DNA from: a virus
IMG/VR virus record: IMGVR_UViG_3300025424_000012
Location: 1 to 56,242 of that record
Strand: one strand, 5' to 3'
Length of the DNA: 56,242 bases
The notes below the pieces were generated by a model that saw only the letters and a program-made list of their open reading frames with translations, did no database searches and had not been told where the DNA came from. How positions within the stretch are numbered: position 1 is the stretch's first letter; each line of letters begins with the position of its first letter. Shown piece after piece: positions 6,204 to 55,680 of this stretch. Both the position numbers and the translations under genes were made by a program.

Positions 6204-8080
6204 GCTGCCATCCTTTCCGCAAACTGCTCGCTGTAATTGGCAGCCACATAGGCGCGGGCCATCGGGGGACACACAGAATTTCCGACCATACGCACTTGGG
6301 CAGTTTTGGTCAGCGCGCGCCCGTCTCCGCCTCGCTCAATCTGGTACGTATCTGGAAAACCTTGTGCCCGGTAGAGCTCGCGTGGCGTGAGCATGCGCAG
6401 GCCAATGTCCACAATCGCGTAGTCCTGGCCCTTGATAGTGACCAAGCCAAAGCGGTCCTTGGTCGTGATGGTGTGCAGCGGCTCTCGTAGCTGCGGGTCT
6501 TGGTCGGTGCCGTAGTATTTCACCAAGAAGGCGCGGACCTCGGCATGGTGGGTGCCCTGGGCACTGATGGTTGCCAGGGGTGAGTCTGTGGGCTGGCCCA
6601 CGTTGTCGCCGCGCAGCTTGATAAGGTTGCTGGTGACAACTGCAGCCGGCATGCCGTTGGCGGTAACCGTGTTGAGCGGTTGCGCAACATCCCGGATGCC
6701 ATGGCTGAATCGCTTGGTGCCATCTTTGCCTTCGCCGTGGCCCATGTGCACCAGATGCGCCGCCACCATCGCGTGCCGGTTCTCGGTCACGGTTGTTTTC
6801 AGCGGTGCCGTGGCCGGGCTGTGGCCACCCTGGCTGCTCTGGTTGTCGATGGTGACCATGTGGGCAGTGATCAGCCCGTGCCGGTTCTCGGTGGTCTGTG
6901 TCTTGACAGGATCGCGCACGTCGCTGGCGCGCACATCAGATGGCCTCTTGTCCGAGTGGTAGTGCACCAATGCGGCAGTCACCAAGCTGTTGTGATCCAC
7001 GCTTGTGACGGTTGCCAGCGGGTCAGCCATGTCACTTCCCACCACGCCGCCGTAGTGCTTGGCAATGAACGCCGTTACCAGGGCATGCTTTTCCGTGCCA
7101 ACCAGGGTGCCAATGGGCTTTTCCAATCCGGGCACGCGCGGTGCCTGGCCTTGGCGCTCTCCGTAGCCGGTCTGGATAAGCGTCGGTACAACCAGGGCGC
7201 GGTGATTCTCGACCGTAACCGTGCCAAATGGCTTTGTCGTTGGCGCTGGCTTGCCTGCATAGATGGGCCCACCTTGGCCCACGATAAACGGATCGGCCGC
7301 ATCGACCACATACCGCATGATGCCCTTGGCAATGCGCCTGCATGTGGCCTCGGCCAATGGCTTTGAGCGCTCAAAAATACTCGGGGCCGGGATGCTCCAG
7401 TCGATGCATTCCGCAGCCGTGCGCCACGGCTTCAGCTTCTTTTGTTTGACCGGCAGGCTGGCCGGCGCGCCGTGGGTCTGCTCGGGAAACACGATGGGCA
7501 AGCCGTCGCAGCGGGCCACCAGAAACAGACGTTTGCGAATGGTCGGGGTTCCGAAGTCGCTTGCCCGGTCTTCACGAAAATCGACCTTGTAGCCCAAGTT
7601 TTCCAGTGATTTTTTCCAGCGCTGAAAGGTGCGTCCTTTGCGCTGCGGGCATGGCCGGTCATCTGCACCCAGCGGGCCCCAGGTCTGGAATTCTTCGACG
7701 TTCTCCAGAAAGATGACGCGCGGCCGCACCAGCTTGGCCCACTTGACCACGACCCAAGCCAGCCCGCGAATCTTCTTGCTGACCGGCTTGCCGCCCTTGG
7801 CCTTACTGAAATGCTTGCAGTCCGGTGATGCCCAAAGCATCCCCACAGGCCTGCCTTCGACCACGGTAACGGGGTCAACTTCAAACACGTCCGAGACGTA
7901 ATGCAGGGTCTGGGGATGGTTGGCTTGATGAAGCGCCACGGCCTCGGGGTCATGGTTGATGGCAATGTCGACATGGCGGCCAATGGCCTGCTCGATTCCG
8001 GTTGAAGCGCCGCCACCGCCCGCGAACAGGTCAATTACGAGCTCATGGGCCAGGGGCAGGATGTACTGTGGTTTAAGCAT
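6200..8080 (-). CDS. C5-cytosine DNA methyltransferase with repeated target-recognition region
   Basis: Encodes 626 residues from the ATG at 8080 (GGAG 5 bases upstream). It methylates cytosine in DNA. Motif I is DLFAGGGGAS (17-26), the catalytic cysteine is C88 in ASPDCKHFSKAKGG, ENVEEF (126-131) is motif VI, RKRLFLVARC (182-191) is motif VIII and GNSVCPPMA (600-608) is motif X. The catalytic loop reads SPDC instead of the usual PPC. Between 283 and 560 lie about eight repeats of the form PLxTVT-xxxRHxLVTAxLV. The gene overlaps the reverse-transcriptase stop by 8 bases. It probably protects phage DNA from host restriction, possibly at several sites. Confidence 0.9.
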   Translation of the reverse strand: MLKPQYILPLAHELVIDLFAGGGGASTGIEQAIGRHVDIAINHDPEAVALHQANHPQTLHYVSDVFEVDPVTVVEGRPVGMLWASPDCKHFSKAKGGKPVSKKIRGLAWVVVKWAKLVRPRVIFLENVEEFQTWGPLGADDRPCPQRKGRTFQRWKKSLENLGYKVDFREDRASDFGTPTIRKRLFLVARCDGLPIVFPEQTHGAPASLPVKQKKLKPWRTAAECIDWSIPAPSIFERSKPLAEATCRRIAKGIMRYVVDAADPFIVGQGGPIYAGKPAPTTKPFGTVTVENHRALVVPTLIQTGYGERQGQAPRVPGLEKPIGTLVGTEKHALVTAFIAKHYGGVVGSDMADPLATVTSVDHNSLVTAALVHYHSDKRPSDVRASDVRDPVKTQTTENRHGLITAHMVTIDNQSSQGGHSPATAPLKTTVTENRHAMVAAHLVHMGHGEGKDGTKRFSHGIRDVAQPLNTVTANGMPAAVVTSNLIKLRGDNVGQPTDSPLATISAQGTHHAEVRAFLVKYYGTDQDPQLREPLHTITTKDRFGLVTIKGQDYAIVDIGLRMLTPRELYRAQGFPDTYQIERGGDGRALTKTAQVRMVGNSVCPPMARAYVAANYSEQFAERMAA

Positions 8081-9452
8081 TGGTTCTCCGAAAACTCTTG
8101 GTGAAGTGAAAATCAACGGCATGACCGCGCTGGCGCATGGCCTGAGCAAGCCTCGCGCGGTCGTTGTGGCTGTGGCTGGATTGGCGAAGAAGCCCGAAAT
8201 AGCTGTTCCCGGCCTCAAAAGTGTCGTCATCACCCAAGGTGTGAATCCGGGATATAGCGCTGTTGACCGTCCGAGCTCTTGTGGTCCGCCGCCATGGCTT
8301 GACCACAAAACCAACGAAGTCCACGCCACGTTCCACCGGCTGGATGATGGTTTTTCGGTCATTCAGACGCGCACCAAGCCGCTCGGGCAAGAACTCCCGG
8401 ATCCTGCGGTGTGCATCGCCGAGCCACGCCGACGACTCATGCAGGATCACAAAATCATCGACATACCGGACGTAATGTCGCGCGCCGATCTGGTGCTTGC
8501 AAAATTGGTCCAAGGCGTCCAGGTGGACATTGGCGAAGAATTGCGAGCTCAGGTTGCCAATGGGTAACCCGGTATTGGCCGGCGAGCAAAGCAGCCTCTT
8601 GTGGGCTGGCACGCGGCCCATGAGCGCAGGATCGCCGCGGTATTGATACGACTGGCGCGGGTCATGGAACAAGATGGTCCTGGCCAACTCCAACCAGAAG
8701 GGTTCGTGCACTTTGGCCGCGAGCTGGGCAAACAGAATGTGCTTGTCGATCGCCACAAAGAAATTGGCAAGATCGAGTTTCAGATACCACGCAGGCCGGG
8801 CCCAGTTCTGGGTGATGGACCGGATACCGCTTTCCAAGCGTTTGGCGGCGTACAGCGTGCCCCTGCCGGGTATGCAAGCGCTGCTGCCGGCCACAAAGCC
8901 AGCATGGAAGCGCGGGGCTATCTGGTTGTACAGACGGTGATGAACAATCCGATCACGAAATTCGGCAGCCCAGACCTCGCGGTGCTTTGGCCTGGTGATG
9001 ACAAAGCAGATGGATGGACCTGGGCGGTATTGGCCGGAAGAAAGCTCTTCGAACAGCTCGCACAGGTTGCGCTCCAGGGCTTGCTCGAAAGCAAGTGCAC
9101 TGGAAGTGTTGCGCTTAGTCTGGCGGCAGTCCAAATAGGCCTGCAATAGCTGATCGAATGAGACTGACGATGAATCTGCTGACGGCGCGAGCCAGGGCCT
9201 CGTAGGACTTGTTGTTGTTGTTCTGGTTGCCGTTGTTGAAGTTCTGATTCCAGGCGTTGTTCTCGGAGTACTGCGTCGATTCGCGCCATCCACGTCGCCA
9301 CGCCGAAGGCCTGAGCCGATCAGTTTGGAAACTGCACCGGACCGGGTCTGCGCTTGGGCAGCGGTATCCGTGATGTGCATGTCCGTGGCCTTGTGAGCCA
9401 GGGGCGCGACCAGATTCAAATTTCGCACGGGCATGATGACCTTGACCGTCAT
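8073..9452 (-). CDS. DGR reverse transcriptase
   Basis: Encodes 459 residues from the ATG at 9452 (ATGA overlap with avd). It copies the template RNA into cDNA with errors at adenines. Family marks are RPKHREVWAAEFRDRIVHH (154-172), KLDLANFF (225-232), LPIGNLSSQFFANVHLDALD (296-315) and the catalytic YVDD (330-333). The (L/Q)P-x-G-N-x-x-S-Q form is typical of DGR enzymes. Core homology begins near residue 98 (SFDQLLQAYLDC). Residues about 60-93 are the TR read in another frame, giving a Thr/Arg/Pro-rich stretch. I see no good start codon after the TR; an ATG at 9434 with AAGG before it is an alternative start. Confidence 0.93.
   Translation of the reverse strand: MTVKVIMPVRNLNLVAPLAHKATDMHITDTAAQAQTRSGAVSKLIGSGLRRGDVDGANRRSTPRTTPGIRTSTTATRTTTTSPTRPWLAPSADSSSVSFDQLLQAYLDCRQTKRNTSSALAFEQALERNLCELFEELSSGQYRPGPSICFVITRPKHREVWAAEFRDRIVHHRLYNQIAPRFHAGFVAGSSACIPGRGTLYAAKRLESGIRSITQNWARPAWYLKLDLANFFVAIDKHILFAQLAAKVHEPFWLELARTILFHDPRQSYQYRGDPALMGRVPAHKRLLCSPANTGLPIGNLSSQFFANVHLDALDQFCKHQIGARHYVRYVDDFVILHESSAWLGDAHRRIREFLPERLGARLNDRKTIIQPVERGVDFVGFVVKPWRRTTRARTVNSAISRIHTLGDDDTFEAGNSYFGLLRQSSHSHNDRARLAQAMRQRGHAVDFHFTKSFRRTNA
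9173..9276 (-). repeat. TR: DGR template repeat (TR)
   Basis: A 104-bp donor repeat, read on the minus strand. It matches 9853-9956 over 104 positions and 10403-10500 over its upstream 98. The variable part holds 11 AAY codons (AAC-AAC, AAT, AAC, AAC-AAC, AAC and four AAC), so in the VR frame it encodes Asn at all 11 diversified positions. The last about 40 bases (KSYEALARAV in the VR frame) are conserved and should act as the initiation-of-homology end. It lies between avd and the reverse-transcriptase core, inside the latter's 5' reading frame. Confidence 0.95.
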
Positions 9453-9811
9453 GCTGCAGGCGACAAACGAGCCGATTTAAGCCAGCCGCCGGCTTGCTTG
9501 CCAATGCTCTCGGTAAGCTGGATTGCTCCAGCCCAGAGCTTGGGCGACACAAAGCGCTTGTCATGGCTCAGGCGAAGCAACAGGGTTACGACTTCAAGGC
9601 GCTCGACCAACGCGATGATGTGCGGAGCCCTGCCCATACCCCGCGCCGCATTGGCGCGCCCGATCAGGACAAGGATTTCCACGCATTCCGTGTGAATCTT
9701 GCTGCCCAAGCTGGCCTTGAAGGCGCGCGGCATGTTCTGCTGCACGTCAGCTGCCAGACTCAAAAGGTCATAGCCCTGTTTGTAAATCGGGAGTTGGGTA
9801 TGGAGTGCCAT
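9449..9811 (-). CDS. avd: Avd-like DGR accessory protein
   Basis: Encodes 120 residues, basic and helical. The composition and the sequence IYKQGYDLLSLAADVQQN, KIHTECVEILVLIGRANAA and ALVERLEVVTLLLRLSHD fit the four-helix-bundle Avd family. Avd assembles as a ring that binds the reverse transcriptase and template RNA. Size and position (target, avd, TR, RT) match known DGRs such as that of Bordetella phage BPP-1. No strong Shine-Dalgarno sequence is visible before the ATG at 9811, so translation may depend on the upstream target gene, whose stop is 31 bases away. Confidence 0.85.
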   Translation of the reverse strand: MALHTQLPIYKQGYDLLSLAADVQQNMPRAFKASLGSKIHTECVEILVLIGRANAARGMGRAPHIIALVERLEVVTLLLRLSHDKRFVSPKLWAGAIQLTESIGKQAGGWLKSARLSPAA

Positions 9812-9842
9812 GGCTTAAATCAAATTCAAAAGGACTGAAGGC

Positions 9843-10346
9843 TTAAAGCGGAAATCTGCTGACGGCGCGAGCCAGGGCCTCGTAGGACTTGCGGCGGTCG
9901 TCCTGGGTGCCGTCGGTGAAGTCCTGACTCCAGGCGCTGCCCTCGGAGCACTGCGTACCCGTCCAATGCCACTCGCTCGTATCCAGCTTGTCCTGCAGAT
10001 TTGCGTAAAGAAGCGCTGATTCAAACCGCGTTGGCAGGCGGGCACCGTTGCCCAAAGATTCGGCCCACTTGACGGCAGCAGCCCACGCCTGCTTTTTTTC
10101 GGGTACAGCATTGAGCAGCACCAGGTGGCCGTCCGGCTCGCCATCCAGACCACGGGAAAGACCGGCATACACGCCATCCAAACCGGGCCACGGCTCGCCG
10201 ATCTTGGGGAACACGCCGACCTCGGGCGCGGTTCCAGCCGGCGGCTCATCGTCCGGAATGGACTTGACCATCAGACCTTCGATAAAGGCCTTGACGATGG
10301 CTGACGGGCCGTCTTGAATGTGAATGTTCACGGTGTTGATACGCAT
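9843..10346 (-). CDS. DGR target protein 1, DUF1566-like with variable C-terminus
   Basis: Encodes 167 residues from the ATG at 10346 (GGAG 7 bases upstream). The C-terminal half (LPTRFESALLYANL then EWHWTGTQCSEGSAW) fits a DUF1566/C-type-lectin-like fold, the usual DGR display scaffold. The VR covers about residues 131-165. The eleven template Asn positions are G136, S137, S140, D142, T144, D145, T147, D149, D150, R151 and R152, and Y133 is changed to Cys. The N-terminal 50 residues are a separate small domain (MRINTVNIHIQDG). There is no signal peptide. The binding target is unknown. Confidence 0.9.
   Translation of the reverse strand: MRINTVNIHIQDGPSAIVKAFIEGLMVKSIPDDEPPAGTAPEVGVFPKIGEPWPGLDGVYAGLSRGLDGEPDGHLVLLNAVPEKKQAWAAAVKWAESLGNGARLPTRFESALLYANLQDKLDTSEWHWTGTQCSEGSAWSQDFTDGTQDDRRKSYEALARAVSRFPL
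9853..9956 (-). repeat. VR1: DGR variable repeat 1 (VR1)
   Basis: Aligned base by base to the TR over 104 positions with no gaps, VR1 differs at 15 positions and every one is a template adenine on the coding strand. The 3' end of the repeat runs nearly to the stop codon of target 1. Changes are mostly A to G, with four A to C and no A to T. Confidence 0.95.
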
Positions 10347-10380
10347 GGTTTGCTCCAGTTGAAATAAAGGATTAAAGGGC

Positions 10381-11001
10381 TCAAGCACTGAGTTGAATCA
10401 GCCTGACGGCGCGAGCCAGGGCCTCGTAGGACTTGAGGCTGTAGCCCTGGTAGCCGTGGCCGAAGAACTGATACCAGGCGTAGCCCTCGGAGTACTGCGT
10501 GCTTGACCAATACCAGCGCTGCTCGAAAGCCTCCGGGCCATCTTCACGGAAAACATCTGCCGTGGTCTGGATCGGGCTTTGCTCGGTGTATGGATAGCCG
10601 GCAGGGATGCTGCTGGGGTTGTCGCCGTCGCGGAAGCTGGCGGAGTTTTCATCCGTGCCAGGCTTCAGGTTGCGGTAGGCCAGCTCGAGCACGTCGCGGG
10701 CAGGAATGCACCAATCCTTGTGGCCATTGATTTCCAGCCCCAGGGCCCACTTTGCCAGCGGGCTGCCGGCTTCGGCCATGGCAACGGTGTTGTCCATGCT
10801 GTGAAAGCAGCTGGCGGCGTTGGGTACGTCGGTATAGCTGGGCAGCCAAATGGATTTCTTCTCGCCCAAAGCCTTGGGCGCCCAGACAATGGCGAACTTC
10901 TTCGTGCCCCCGTGGCTGTTGATGGTGCCGCCGTAGAACCCACCTTCAAAGGCGGTAGCGAATTGGGCTGGGACGAGGATGGATGGTTTGTTTTGGTTCA
11001 T
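10381..11001 (-). CDS. DGR target protein 2, DUF1566-like with variable C-terminus
   Basis: Encodes 206 residues, GGAG 6 bases before the ATG at 11001. It shows the DUF1566/C-type-lectin pattern: DWCIPARDVLELAYRNLKP (about 96-114), YPYTEQSPIQTTADVF (136-151) and WYWSSTQYSEGYAW (163-176). The VR spans about residues 168-200. Diversified positions are 173, 174, 177, 179, 181, 182, 184 and 186-189, now enriched in Tyr, Gly and Phe, as is common in selected binding surfaces. There is no signal peptide or membrane segment. It is the first gene of the DGR cluster; what it binds is unknown. Confidence 0.92.
   Translation of the reverse strand: MNQNKPSILVPAQFATAFEGGFYGGTINSHGGTKKFAIVWAPKALGEKKSIWLPSYTDVPNAASCFHSMDNTVAMAEAGSPLAKWALGLEINGHKDWCIPARDVLELAYRNLKPGTDENSASFRDGDNPSSIPAGYPYTEQSPIQTTADVFREDGPEAFEQRWYWSSTQYSEGYAWYQFFGHGYQGYSLKSYEALARAVRLIQLSA
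10403..10500 (-). repeat. VR2: DGR variable repeat 2 (VR2)
   Basis: A 98-bp ungapped match to TR positions 9179-9276 with 16 differences, all at template adenines, and including changes to G, C and T on the coding strand. The right limit (ACGCAG on the coding strand) is the same as in TR and VR1. The left limit is 6 bases shorter than the TR/VR1 match. Confidence 0.95.
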
Positions 11002-11044: not shown

Positions 11045-11866
11045 TCAGGCCGTTGCCGGCTCTGTGCTGCGGTCAAACAATGGCCGCTGATCCGGCTCGC
11101 CCTTGGTCATGTCATCGGGTATGGCCAGAAGCTCGTCGTTCTGCTCGATGATCACGGTCACAAAACCGCCGGCCACGTCCGCCAGGCTGTGGGCTTCGCT
11201 GTTGGCCATGAGCTTGAGGGTGGCCTTGACTTCGGCTTCGCCTTTGAAATTGACTTTTTCAACCTGGGCGCGGAACTCGATCCGGCCGTGGTGGGCAATG
11301 ATGCGAATCGCCTTCTGTGCGGCGCGGCGAACATCGTCAGCCAATCCAGTCAGCACGCGCTCTTGCTCGCCTTCGCTGAGTTGGGACCATGGCACAGCCA
11401 GATCCATGAAGCGCAGCTTTGCGGCGCGCATCAAGTCGCCAACCATGAAAATTTCCGCATGGCCTTCGGTTCCAAATGCCGTGCTTGGAGCCTTGAGGAA
11501 CAGTGCGAGCACATCGTCGCCAATCTGATCGTCCTGGTTGCTCAGTTCCACGATGGCGGCAAGTTGAAATTCGTCGTCAGGTTTCTTTGGTTCCCAACCT
11601 TCCGCTATGGCGTCTTTGCGAAAAGACTTAATGATTTTTTTGGCAGCAGCGGATGTGTCGTCCGACAGGCGCACCCAGGCAAAGGAATGACCGGCAGCGG
11701 CGAGACGGGCTTCCAGGGCCTCGATCTCATCCTTTTCCATCACGCCGGACGTGTGGATTGGAAGTGCAGCGGCTGCGCCAAAGCCGGAGGCAACATTGGT
11801 GCCGACGAATTTCAAAGCCTCGGGGCTCAGGTCGACGAGCAAAGGCGTAACGGTTTCAGTGTTCAC
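11045..11866 (-). CDS. Hypothetical early phage protein
   Basis: Encodes 273 residues. It is soluble, with a possible coiled segment around EKDEIEALEARLAAAG (about 44-58). A conserved-looking C-terminal block reads RIIAHHGRIEF, AEVKATLKL and AGGFVTVIIEQNDELLAIPD. I do not recognise a named domain. It lies between the recombination genes and the DGR and ends STEPATA. Early expression is expected from the leftward promoter. Confidence 0.6.
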   Translation of the reverse strand: MNTETVTPLLVDLSPEALKFVGTNVASGFGAAAALPIHTSGVMEKDEIEALEARLAAAGHSFAWVRLSDDTSAAAKKIIKSFRKDAIAEGWEPKKPDDEFQLAAIVELSNQDDQIGDDVLALFLKAPSTAFGTEGHAEIFMVGDLMRAAKLRFMDLAVPWSQLSEGEQERVLTGLADDVRRAAQKAIRIIAHHGRIEFRAQVEKVNFKGEAEVKATLKLMANSEAHSLADVAGGFVTVIIEQNDELLAIPDDMTKGEPDQRPLFDRSTEPATA

Positions 11867-15232: not shown

Positions 15233-16225
15233 TCATGCCTCCGGAAAACCGTCATGGGTGCGGCCATCGAGCAAACGGCCTGCGGCCTTCTTGCCGATGC
15301 GATATAGGTCTGGTTCGTTATCTGCGTGCCCGTCAATGACGCTCAAGTCTTCCTTCTGCAACAACCATTGGTTGTTGAACCATGTGGCCGCTTCGACAGT
15401 GCCGCGTTTGGCAGTGACGTTTACGCCCGGAGTCCACTCTCCCCACTGCTTGAACAGGAAGGGTACGCCAGCAGCCTCACACTGATCGCGCAGACTGCGA
15501 GCCCAATCGGGGTGCATGGGGCGAGCGCCGGGGCCGGATTCACCGCCGACAATGACCCAATCAACCGCATATTGCCGGTCCGTGCTTCCACCACTCTTGT
15601 TTGCGAGAAACCCAGTGAGCACGTTGTCGCAATACGTCCAGTCGCCGTCATAGCTTGAACGCATCACTTGCGTCAAATTCACCGGACCCAACAGCGGCTC
15701 CATGCTCAGGAACCGTTTTGCAGCGGGAACCGCCAGCAGTTTCGGAATGTCCCTGTCGGCTTCGGTCTGGTTCACGATGGTGGCACCCAGCCACAGGTTT
15801 CCAGGTGGAGTCCACCCGTTGGCGCGGTCTAGGAGCGTGCCGTACATCATCGCGTTAGCGTTGCCTATCCGCTTCGTTAGCAGCAACCAGTCAAGGTTCG
15901 GTGTGGCCTCAATCAAGTTAAACAGGTCCGCGCGCCACTGTGGATCTACCTCGTTGTCGAAGACATCGGCCAGTGACGCGCAGAACACCCGCTGCCGGCG
16001 GCCGTGCTGCGCCTGGAAGGCTTCGTGCGCCCGATTCCACTTCTCGGGCTCGCTCCATGTCTTGGTGCGGTGGCGTGCCTGGCCGGGGCCCCACTGGATG
16101 CCAAGCGCGCGGCTGGCCGTGTTGACGGCCGCATAGCAGTTGTCGCAGCCCGGGCTGACCTGGGTGCAGCCGATCCACGGGTTGAAGGTGTGGTCGGCCC
16201 ATTCAATTTTTGTGTTCTCGCTCAT
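15233..16225 (-). CDS. DUF5131 (phage Gp37/Gp68) protein
   Basis: Encodes 330 residues. The opening TKIEWADHTFNPWIGCTQVS followed by PGCDNCYA gives the family's three-cysteine cluster (about 20-31). VFCASLADVFDNEV, DWLLLTKRI, WLGATIVNQ, LSMEPLLGP and VIVGGESGPGARPMHPDW are further family blocks in order. The C-x(n)-C-x-x-C arrangement and the barrel-like order of blocks recall radical-SAM enzymes, but the function of DUF5131 is not established. It is coupled to the upstream gene by ATGA. Confidence 0.85.
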   Translation of the reverse strand: MSENTKIEWADHTFNPWIGCTQVSPGCDNCYAAVNTASRALGIQWGPGQARHRTKTWSEPEKWNRAHEAFQAQHGRRQRVFCASLADVFDNEVDPQWRADLFNLIEATPNLDWLLLTKRIGNANAMMYGTLLDRANGWTPPGNLWLGATIVNQTEADRDIPKLLAVPAAKRFLSMEPLLGPVNLTQVMRSSYDGDWTYCDNVLTGFLANKSGGSTDRQYAVDWVIVGGESGPGARPMHPDWARSLRDQCEAAGVPFLFKQWGEWTPGVNVTAKRGTVEAATWFNNQWLLQKEDLSVIDGHADNEPDLYRIGKKAAGRLLDGRTHDGFPEA

Positions 16226-48936: not shown

Positions 48937-49617
48937 ATGGCCACAGGCGACCAAAACGACATTTTCGGCAGGCTCAACAGCCTGCTGCCCAGCCGCTGGT
49001 TTGTCGGCAGCACGCCGATCAAAGACGCCGTAATGACGGGCATCGCGGCGGTGTTCGCGCAGACCTACGGGCTGTACGCCTATACCAAGCTGCAAACCCG
49101 CATTTCGACACTGACAGACGGCTGGATCGACACCGCAGCAGCGGACTATTTCGGCACCGGGCTGACGCGCAATCTCGGGGAATCAGATGCTGCCTACTTG
49201 GCGCGCGTGAAAGCCAATTTGCTGGCCCCGCGCACCGCGCGCCCGGCAATGGTTACCGTGCTGACTCGGCTGACAGGCCGGGTGCCGACGATCTGGGAGC
49301 CAAACAACCCGGCGGACATGGGTGCCATGAACGCGCCAAAGTCACCGGGGTATTGCGGCGTGGCCCGGTTTGGATCAATGGCGGTACCGTTTAACGCATT
49401 GATTCTGGCGTTTCGGCCAATGGTCACCGGCCAGGTCTCGGCAGGCGCGGCATTCAGCAACGCGCCCAAGCTGTCCGCCATGAACACCCCGCTTTCCCAG
49501 GGCTACACCGGATCGCTCGGCTCGCAGTCTTCAAGCGCGACGGATGCTGCCATTTACGCGGCGGTCAACGCCACCAGGCCGGCCGCTTCCGTGGTGGGCG
49601 TCTCGATCAGCAACTAG
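48937..49617 (+). CDS. Baseplate/tail protein I-like
   Basis: Encodes 226 residues. NDIFGRLNSLLPSRWFVGST, DGWIDTAAADYFGTGLTRNL and ESDAAYLARVKANLLAPRTA look like the gpI/DUF2313-type protein that follows baseplate J. It probably connects the wedge to the fibre encoded next. The C-terminal half is beta-rich. A terminator follows. Confidence 0.7.
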   Translation: MATGDQNDIFGRLNSLLPSRWFVGSTPIKDAVMTGIAAVFAQTYGLYAYTKLQTRISTLTDGWIDTAAADYFGTGLTRNLGESDAAYLARVKANLLAPRTARPAMVTVLTRLTGRVPTIWEPNNPADMGAMNAPKSPGYCGVARFGSMAVPFNALILAFRPMVTGQVSAGAAFSNAPKLSAMNTPLSQGYTGSLGSQSSSATDAAIYAAVNATRPAASVVGVSISN

Positions 49618-49639
49618 ACCAACACTTTCAGCAAACCCA

Positions 49640-49662
49640 GCCCGCCGCGTGCGGGCTTTTTT
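49640..49662 (+). terminator. Intrinsic terminator before the fibre gene
   Basis: GCCCGC, loop CGCGT, GCGGGC, then six Ts. The 17-base hairpin is identical to that at 53445-53461. Confidence 0.88.
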
Positions 49663-49678
49663 CATTGGAGACCAATAC

Positions 49679-51427
49679 ATGGATCGCGTCGAAACCTACG
49701 TCGGACAGTCAATCTACGAGTGGTATTTCAGCAAGCAGGCCCAGAACGACATGGTGGGCCTTGGCCGCCTTTCCGCCGCGCTCATGGGCACCGCTGGAAT
49801 GGTCAATGGCTTGGGCTGCACCCAGACCACGGTCGCCTCCATGCAGGTTTCCATCGGTCAGGGTGAGCTCTACCAGCTGGCCAGCCTCGAAGCAACGGTT
49901 TGCGGCACGCTGCCCGTGAACACCACGGACCAAGTTCTCAAGCAAGGCATCCTGCTGGGCTCGGCCGCCCCGTACAACCTTCCGGCCAGCAGCACCTTTG
50001 CCACGCCTGGCAGCTCGGGCCAGTCCATCAATTACTTGATTGAGGCCCAATATCAGGATCAGGACGTCAGCGTCGACCCGACCACTGGCGCTACACCGGT
50101 CACGCTGAATTTCTACAACTCGTCCAATCCTTCGACGCCTTGGAGCGGCCCCAACAACACGGGCGCCAGCAGCAACACTTTCCGCAAAGGTGTCATTGCT
50201 TGGCAAGTTAAGGCCGGAACTGCGGCCACCACCGGCACACAGACCACGCCATCGCCGGATTCCGGCTGGATCGGGCTGTACGTGGTCACGGTGGCCTATG
50301 GTGCTTCCAGCATCACAAACAGCAACATTGCCGTTTACCCTGGCGCGCCTTTCATTGCCAGCGGCGGCGTGATTGCTGGCGGCCTGCAAGGCAACGGCTT
50401 TGTTATTTCGACCGCTGGCGGCACGTCTGACGCCTTGACCGGCAGCTACTCGCCCGGAATTACCGCTGTGACCAATGGCATGAGCTTGTTGCTGCGCGCC
50501 GGAGCGGCGAATGCAACGACCACGCCCACCTTTACGCCGAACAGCGGCGTCATTGGCGCTGTGACCATCGTCAAAGGCAGCGGCACGCCATTGAATCCCG
50601 GCGACATTGCAGGTGCCGGGCATTGGATCGAACTCCAATACGACTCAAGCCTCGCAAAATGGGTGTTGCTCAACCCGGCCACTGGGGCCGCACCGGCAAG
50701 CTCTGCGCCTGTCGGCTCTGTGCGCAACTTGAAGATGTCCATTGCGGCTGCAAGCGCTACCGCAACGCTGACCGCTGACGAAATCATCGTTGAAGCGGCC
50801 CTTGGCGGAGCATCCTACAAACTTGCCAGTTTCAACAAGACGATCAACCTTGCCACCACGGGCGCGGGCGGCATGGACACCGGCACGGCGCCTGTCTCTG
50901 GGTATGTCGCGGTCTACGCCTTTTACAACCCGGCCACTGGATCGTCCGCGCTGGTGGGATACAACGCCACCTCCGCTGTCGCGCCAAACATTTACGGCGG
51001 TGCCAATGCGCCCAGCGGCTACACCGCCAGCGCCTTAATTTCCGTTTGGCCAACCAATGCCAGCAGCCAGTTTGTAGCCGGGCTCCAGCGTGACCGAAAG
51101 GTGTCAATTGGTGGCGTCACCGTATTGACTTCTGGATCGAATCAAGCGTCGTATGCATCGCTGTCGATTTCTGTTGCAGCGCCCAAAAACGCGCTGGCCG
51201 TAAGCGGTTGTATCAATGTGACATCCACGTCTTCTACTTTCTGCACTGGCGCGGTGACGCCGGACGGAACAAGCGACATTCAACAAATTGCAGCCAGCAA
51301 CGTGGTTCAAATACTAGCGCCATTTCGCGATTTGCCAATTTTGACCGCTCAAACGCTGTATTACGCGGCTTTTGTCAACGCCGGTACTCCGTCGATTTCC
51401 GTTGTTGTATCTGGCTACACCTTTTAA
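49679..51427 (+). CDS. Tail fibre / receptor-binding protein
   Basis: Encodes 582 residues from the ATG at 49679 (GGAG 8 bases upstream). The N-terminus (YVGQSIYEWYFSKQAQNDMV) should attach to the baseplate. The rest is Ser/Thr/Gly/Ala-rich beta structure, including INLATTGAGGMDTGTAPVSG. It probably binds the host surface. It has no VR-like segment and no similarity to the DGR repeat, so DGR diversification does not act here. The last about 100 codons are slightly less GC-rich than the rest, which hints at module exchange at the tip. Confidence 0.8.
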   Translation: MDRVETYVGQSIYEWYFSKQAQNDMVGLGRLSAALMGTAGMVNGLGCTQTTVASMQVSIGQGELYQLASLEATVCGTLPVNTTDQVLKQGILLGSAAPYNLPASSTFATPGSSGQSINYLIEAQYQDQDVSVDPTTGATPVTLNFYNSSNPSTPWSGPNNTGASSNTFRKGVIAWQVKAGTAATTGTQTTPSPDSGWIGLYVVTVAYGASSITNSNIAVYPGAPFIASGGVIAGGLQGNGFVISTAGGTSDALTGSYSPGITAVTNGMSLLLRAGAANATTTPTFTPNSGVIGAVTIVKGSGTPLNPGDIAGAGHWIELQYDSSLAKWVLLNPATGAAPASSAPVGSVRNLKMSIAAASATATLTADEIIVEAALGGASYKLASFNKTINLATTGAGGMDTGTAPVSGYVAVYAFYNPATGSSALVGYNATSAVAPNIYGGANAPSGYTASALISVWPTNASSQFVAGLQRDRKVSIGGVTVLTSGSNQASYASLSISVAAPKNALAVSGCINVTSTSSTFCTGAVTPDGTSDIQQIAASNVVQILAPFRDLPILTAQTLYYAAFVNAGTPSISVVVSGYTF

Positions 51428-55595: not shown

Positions 55596-55652
55596 TGGTG
55601 CCCGGGGCCGGAATCGAACCGGCACGCCTTGCGGCGGGGGATTTTGAGTCCC
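55596..55652. repeat. attR: attR core inside tRNA-Leu
   Basis: 57 bp identical to attL (38-94). It supplies the 3' part of the tRNA gene, from the anticodon stem to CCA, so the host tRNA is rebuilt after integration. These bases therefore come from the phage. Confidence 0.93.
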
Positions 55653-55680
55653 CTGCGTCTACCAATTTCACCACCCGGGC
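55596..55680 (-). tRNA. tRNA-Leu (anticodon CAA)
   Basis: 85 nt on the minus strand. The acceptor stem GCCCGGG/CCCGGGC, anticodon loop CTCAAAA with anticodon CAA, a long variable arm, the T-loop GGTTCGAATCC and an encoded CCA are all present. It decodes UUG. It is the prophage integration site and remains whole. Confidence 0.95.

Follow-up and report, generated by a model that had tools for sequence, protein, structure and literature searches.

The mechanism of diversity-generating retroelements (DGRs) is known mainly from Bordetella phage BPP-1 (mtd-avd-TR-brt; AY029185), in which a template repeat (TR) is copied with adenine-specific changes into a variable repeat (VR) at the 3' end of the gene for a lectin-fold protein, and which encodes a DGR reverse transcriptase (RT) and the accessory protein Avd. 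The template in BPP-1 is held from the 3' side: the TR directly follows avd, and a structured spacer of 144 nucleotides (nt; Rfam family Phage_DGR, RF03022) extends from the TR to brt, with an adenine of the spacer priming cDNA synthesis (PMC12875486). BPP-1 has one target, the tail protein Mtd, encoded in the tail module, and a hairpin after the VR. Here, we describe a DGR in the virus record IMGVR_UViG_3300025424_000012, positions 1 to 56,242, which we refer to as the window. The direction and chemistry of transfer, the RT and Avd proteins, the lectin fold of the targets, and the location of the VRs at the 3' ends of the target genes are as in BPP-1, whereas the window contains 2 targets in an early operon, no hairpin after the VRs, and no 3' spacer, but a structured RNA 5' of the TR and a TR closed by a covarying helix, here called the clamp. 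Other DGRs tested shared the BPP-1 arrangement, with a spacer on the 3' side of the TR, and in BalMu-1 the RT-14 RNA is likewise located 3' of the TR, unlike RT-15 in the window.

The element is a complete DGR as judged from its sequence, with genes in the transcriptional order VP2, VP1, avd, RT-15 RNA, TR, and RT, all on the minus strand, where VP1 and VP2 are 2 small C-type-lectin targets. Alignments of the repeats demonstrate that a single TR (9173..9276) has been copied with adenine errors into the 3' ends of the 2 adjacent lectin-fold genes, as VR1 (9853..9956) in VP1 and VR2 (10403..10500) in VP2. Taken together, we consider it very probable that this is a two-target DGR that a temperate phage carries in its early operon, in which the template consists of RT-15 and the clamp-closed TR, and in which the RT-15 domain is recognized by RT and Avd.

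Among the closest described systems are the DGRs in Burkholderia phage Magia, Pseudomonas phage Cruim01, and Shewanella phage vB_Sb_QDWS, which belong to the same family (RT 58% to 62% identical) and contain 2 to 3 VRs, and whose lectin targets are encoded in the early region, close to the integrase and away from the tail genes. Cruim01 carries an RT-15 annotation, and DGR targets were suspected by the annotators of Magia. These 2 phages differ from the window in having a third target 7 to 9 kb away (third VRs at 6039-6130 in L052 and 5019-5124 in L053). In the Pseudoalteromonas phages ACA1 and ACA2 and the VHML-like DGRs, the TR is likewise an N-terminal extension of the RT, as stated for the ACA phages (PMC10612066), but it is located within about 10 nt of avd and about 142 nt before the RT, and there is no RT-15. 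One TR serving several VRs is also seen in the two-target phage DGRs nd4 and nd12 (PMC10743442) and in other multi-VR DGRs (PMC6642488, PMC3521204), although these have other targets (tentaclins), and an RNA layout of the type in the window was not found reported for them.

A helix between the RT-15 RNA and the end of the template repeat

The sequence preceding the TR (9274..9465, minus strand) matched the full RT-15 model (RF03018, positions 1-192) with a score of 172.1 bits, compared with a gathering cut-off of 82. It was the only Rfam match around the TR, and the RT core was located 3 nt after the TR. The RNA ended at the TR start, and the same was true of all 13 relatives in the initial scan and of the distant locus L230. 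In Rfam, RT-15 is named solely for its association with RTs, whereas the comparisons establish that it forms the structured 5' domain of the template RNA in this DGR and is followed by the TR. We found no report that links RT-15 to DGRs in the literature searched. The possibility that the leader is an ordinary coding sequence was rejected, as there was no third-position excess of substitutions.

The Rfam model leaves a conserved AAUCUG motif unpaired. We noted that this motif is complementary to CAGAUU at the 3' boundary of the TR, a partner strand that is located outside the model, on the far side of the TR. The 5' strand of the clamp in the window is TTGAATCTG (9411..9419) and the 3' strand is CAGATTCAT (9170..9178), both on the minus strand, and 8 uninterrupted pairs are formed between TGAATCTG at 9418-9411 and CAGATTCA at 9178-9171.

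The pairing was tested in 106 loci, with the 2 strands anchored independently on neighboring conserved bases and with shuffled 3' strands as the control. Pair 7 was formed in 101 of the 106 loci, compared with 44.6 ± 4.5 in the shuffles, and comprised 5 pair types (U-A in 37 loci, G-C in 36, C-G in 20, A-U in 4, and U-G in 4), while pairs 2, 5, 8, and 9 were also formed above the shuffle level. The mean pairing was 0.87 in register and at most 0.46 when the register was slid, and pairs 7 and 8 ranked first and second among 3500 column pairs. Mapping onto the RT tree yielded about 24 two-sided compensatory changes at pairs 2, 5, 7, 8, and 9, with pair 7 alone accounting for 10 such changes and 2 breaks. 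Furthermore, when 34 loci were simply aligned with MAFFT, 91.2% of the clamp cells were paired, a level reached in none of 500 shuffles, the covariation of the clamp was 0.363 versus 0.112 ± 0.018, and RNAalifold predicted the helix unprompted. It was also noted that RNAalifold placed a short conserved helix inside the TR beside the clamp (ACGG with CCGU; A5 columns 286-289 with 340-343), which may reflect only coding conservation.

The position of the clamp coincides with the end of the repeat. Across 200 VRs, the TR/VR identity was about 0.96 up to the first base of the clamp and mostly below 0.35 from its eighth base. The homology thus stops inside the 3' strand, which identifies the clamp as the mark of the TR end. 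Covariation and repeat boundaries together demonstrate, at the level of comparative sequence analysis, that RT-15 pairs with the 3' boundary of the TR, so that the TR forms a closed loop that ends almost directly at the RT coding sequence. No description of such a clamp-closed, leader-first template RNA was found in the literature searched.

A leader-first layout was also identified in a second group, here called Bacteroidetes-type (L145, L150, L151, and L156-L228), which is represented by the DGRs of Bacteroides phages F2 and F4, with an RT about 34% identical to that in the window, a leader of 128 nt, and a distance of 31 nt between the TR and the RT. Among 45 loci of this type, at least 8 contiguous pairs between the leader and the 3' junction of the TR were found in 24 (expected 1.7) and at least 9 in 11 (expected 0.4), although these loci are mutually related and the counts are not independent. 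The clamp was mostly located 60 to 86 nt before the TR, and its sequence differed both from that in the window family and among loci (TTTCCGTAA, ATCTGTAAA, TTATCTGTAAA, GTTATCTG, and TTTCCATT). No Rfam family, RT-15 included, matched the leaders scanned, but the clamp was present all the same. A simple single-sequence search of the BPP-1, VHML-like, phiARM81mr, and BalMu-1 DGRs recovered no complementarity above that in the shuffles.

The RT reading frame and a proposed role of the clamp

The RT open reading frame in the window (8073..9452, minus strand; conserved RT sequence from about 9170) runs through the TR and is open up to an ATG at 9452, which overlaps the stop codon of avd (ATGA). Further in-frame starts upstream of the TR are an ATG at 9380 and a GTG at 9293, whereas the segment between the TR and the RT core contains no ATG or GTG, and its one candidate, a TTG at 9146, is poor and precedes the core motif by six bases. 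As read from these codons, the RT in the window has no plausible start after the TR. A usable start was located after the TR in only 22 of the 106 loci, inside the TR in 59, and only before the TR in 25, including the window. The distance from a conserved motif preceding the TR (GACGTAGATAGC) to the RT core took 13 values, all of which were divisible by 3 (103 of 103 loci), and the distance from the clamp to the core took 11 values, with 101 of 103 loci in one phase. The latter is the cleaner evidence for a conserved frame, since the target genes partly constrain the TR to lengths that are multiples of three. Translation of the TR as an N-terminal extension of the RT was noted earlier for the ACA phages (PMC10612066), and overlap of TR and RT defines structural group 3 in PMC3521204.

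We suggest the following mechanism. The RT-Avd complex would recognize the RT-15 domain, and the clamp would set the 3' end of the TR, where cDNA synthesis must start, beside this domain, acting from the 5' side as the 3' spacer does in BPP-1. The cDNA, with random bases opposite template adenines, would then replace the VR. Translation of the RT would begin within or upstream of the TR, in which case one RNA would be both message and template. The 2 small lectin proteins may serve as variable binding proteins that are produced early in infection or in the lysogen. At clamp pair 6, the 5' base (at about 9416 in the window) is an adenine in 98 of the 106 loci even though its partner is free, and we consider it a candidate functional adenine.

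Some of the data weigh against this scheme. Pair 6 does not form in about half of the loci. The leader has no codon periodicity and the frame upstream of the pre-TR motif varies (85:9:9), so that translation upstream of this motif is not supported and the RT probably starts close to or inside the TR in most family members. In addition, three contigs that were obtained from other metagenomes and are almost identical to the window had the same VRs, apart from one G>T at a template G and with no variation at template adenines, so that this particular population gives no sign of recent diversification.

The leader-TR pairing could instead regulate translation of the RT, by hiding or exposing the path through the TR, or protect the ends of the RNA, rather than organize the template for cDNA synthesis. 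This is the strongest of the alternatives, and the RT frames that, in many loci, run through the TR from starts in or before it would fit such a role, but we consider it rather unlikely. The Bacteroidetes-type group, whose RT proteins appear to start downstream of the TR, also has a clamp, and the 3' strand of the clamp coincides with the end of the TR/VR homology, which points to cDNA initiation. From this coincidence, we infer that the clamp may function in starting cDNA synthesis.

Another explanation is that the element is an ordinary DGR of the BPP-1 type, whose RT in fact binds a spacer 3' of the TR, within the RT coding sequence, with RT-15 and the clamp being incidental. The gene order (target, avd, TR, RT) and the chemistry of change are those of BPP-1, but a 3' spacer is lacking: the distance from the clamp to the RT core motif is 35 to 62 nt across the family, compared with 144 nt between the TR and brt in BPP-1. 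Nor did the synonymous divergence drop at the 5' end of the RT gene across the family, which gives no indication of a hidden spacer, and this candidate was rejected for lack of synonymous suppression. The conserved RNA and the covariation are instead located 5' of the TR and across it. Hairpins or cruciforms after the VRs were likewise absent: the stem lengths after 200 family VRs equaled those in shuffles and the VRs in the window had 4-bp stems only, whereas the 8-bp stem of BPP-1 was recovered by the same test. We therefore regard a BPP-1-type organization as very unlikely.

A broader proposal can be made, although only tentatively: DGR template RNAs may come in 2 architectures, and in the RT-15 and Bacteroidetes-type systems a 5' domain that clamps the 3' boundary of the TR may provide the cDNA platform, possibly with a 2'-OH primer, for which the conserved adenine at clamp pair 6 is a candidate, and replace the spacer of BPP-1, while translation of the RT through its own template would couple RT supply to template use. 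A large family with a mirror-image layout and a covarying clamp would represent a second, independent model for choosing the cDNA start, and would offer an explanation for an Rfam RNA named solely by its association with RTs as well as straightforward rules by which a DGR could be transplanted to a different host.

Adenine-specific changes and activity in the family

The TR (9173-9276) was aligned without gaps to VR1 (9853-9956), and its positions 9179-9276 to VR2 (10403-10500), on the coding (minus) strand. The original prediction had counted 15 and 16 differences, all 31 at template adenines, and tabulation of the template bases gave the same result: 15 of 15 in VR1 (11 A>G and 4 A>C) and 16 of 16 in VR2 (7 A>G, 7 A>T, and 2 A>C), with zero mismatches at template C, G, or T. 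The hypergeometric chance of adenine-only mismatches was 7e-9 for VR1 and 1e-9 for VR2. The prediction was also correct in that VR1 contains A>G and A>C changes and VR2 all three outcomes, that all 11 asparagine (AAY) codons in the template are altered in each VR, and that the final 3' block (AAGTCCTACGAGGCC...GTCAG) is the same in the TR and the VRs; its estimate of about 15 to the 11th power of combinations is right for 11 NNY codons, which encode 15 amino acids and no stop. The sole altered codon of another kind was TAC>TGC in VR1. The repeat limits hold, since forcing the last six bases of the TR onto VR2 resulted in extra mismatches at bases other than adenine, and a search of the whole prophage record identified no further copy of the TR and no additional VR. 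This pattern is in itself the textbook signature of a DGR, and as a DGR the element is ordinary: TR/VR alignments across all clades overwhelmingly have at least 75% of the mismatches at adenines (PMC8144416), and multiple VRs were found in 28.6% of 948 DGRs (PMC6642488). The prediction did not include the RT-15 RNA, the clamp, the continuation of the RT frame through the TR, or the location in the early operon.

RT relatives with the same layout were identified in IMG/VR, in Pseudomonas and Rhodoferax genomes, and in isolated phages, and a scan of IMG/VR with the RT alignment yielded at least 565 confirmed RT relatives. In 80 further loci, usually with two VRs each, 1803 of 1863 TR/VR mismatches were at template adenines. 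The loci L037 and L046 had zero differences over 1982 flanking bases, 1074 RT bases, and 107 TR bases, yet both VRs differed between them, with changes at 33 of 62 template-A sites compared with only 2 of 149 other VR sites. The same behavior was observed in the nearly identical pairs L036/L037 and L039/L042, with 27 to 33 of 62 VR template-A sites differing across all three pairs. Such divergence between otherwise near-identical cassettes and flanks implies that the family is active, and demonstrates, from these comparisons, that TR-to-VR diversification is current. The pairs L030/L031, L028/L048, and L043/L047 were identical throughout. Together with the DGR-type RT, Avd, and lectin targets, the VR-restricted divergence among relatives supports the earlier view that the differences in the window arose by mutagenic retrohoming and not by drift.

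The single difference among the contigs nearly identical to the window, a G>T at a template G in VR2 (L004 position 1027, window 10495; Q169H), is not a retrohoming change. That the cassette has decayed, and that its VRs are relics no longer changing in this phage, would fit the identical VRs in these three contigs but is highly improbable, since the same identity also fits one clone sampled several times, the window retains an intact RT, Avd, RT-15, and clamp and unbroken frames in both targets, and close family members are active. In L006 (IMGVR_UViG_3300025353_000276), the whole DGR cassette was 100% identical to that in the window over 2892 bp, while the upstream sequence was only 96% to 98% identical and the gene at 11045-11866 was missing; this looks like a recent transfer of the cassette between related phages.

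Cassette proteins and prophage setting

The RT matched PF00078 and phrog_1423 (E 1.8e-109), and its best solved relative was the BPP-1 DGR RT (8ub7, E 4e-50). The avd gene (9449..9811, minus strand) encodes an accessory variability determinant of 120 amino acids that matched PF22296 and phrog_3206. VP1 (9843..10346, minus strand) is a protein of 167 amino acids, with the C-type-lectin domain in its C-terminal two thirds, and VP2 (10381..11001, minus strand) is a protein of 206 amino acids with a single C-type-lectin domain, probably of the Lcl_C kind, for which the match to PF07603 was weak (28.1 bits, gathering cut-off 34.9) but the fold match to Lcl was strong. The AlphaFold2 models of VP1 and VP2 had predicted local distance difference test scores of 84 and 86, respectively, and the best PDB match of both was the C-terminal domain of Legionella Lcl (8q4e), with Z 14.3 over 115 residues for VP1 and Z 13.3 over 124 residues for VP2. 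According to these models, both proteins have a C-type-lectin fold with the VR at the C-terminus.

The record is a prophage of a contractile-tailed phage, with an integrase gene at 445-1452 and genes for terminase, portal, tail sheath, tape measure, baseplate, and tail fiber proteins on the plus strand. A perfect direct repeat of 57 bp was identified at 38-94 and 55596-55652, the right copy of which is located within a tRNA-Leu gene (55596-55680); from their sequence and the nearby integrase, these repeats are the attachment sites of an intact prophage. The DGR is located in the early operon on the minus strand, downstream of a RecE-like exonuclease gene and upstream of a cytosine methylase gene, and the tail fiber gene (49544-51427) contained no VR. 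This placement apart from the tail genes suggests that the targets are probably not tail fibers, which raises the question of what the phage diversifies early in infection.

In a Pseudomonas-type relative (L029), a Proteo-phage-1 RNA (RF03044) was identified at 9189-9267, about 2.1 kb downstream of the RT. The early operon in the window also contains a gene with a strong match to DUF5131 (15233-16225, minus strand, E 1.6e-88).

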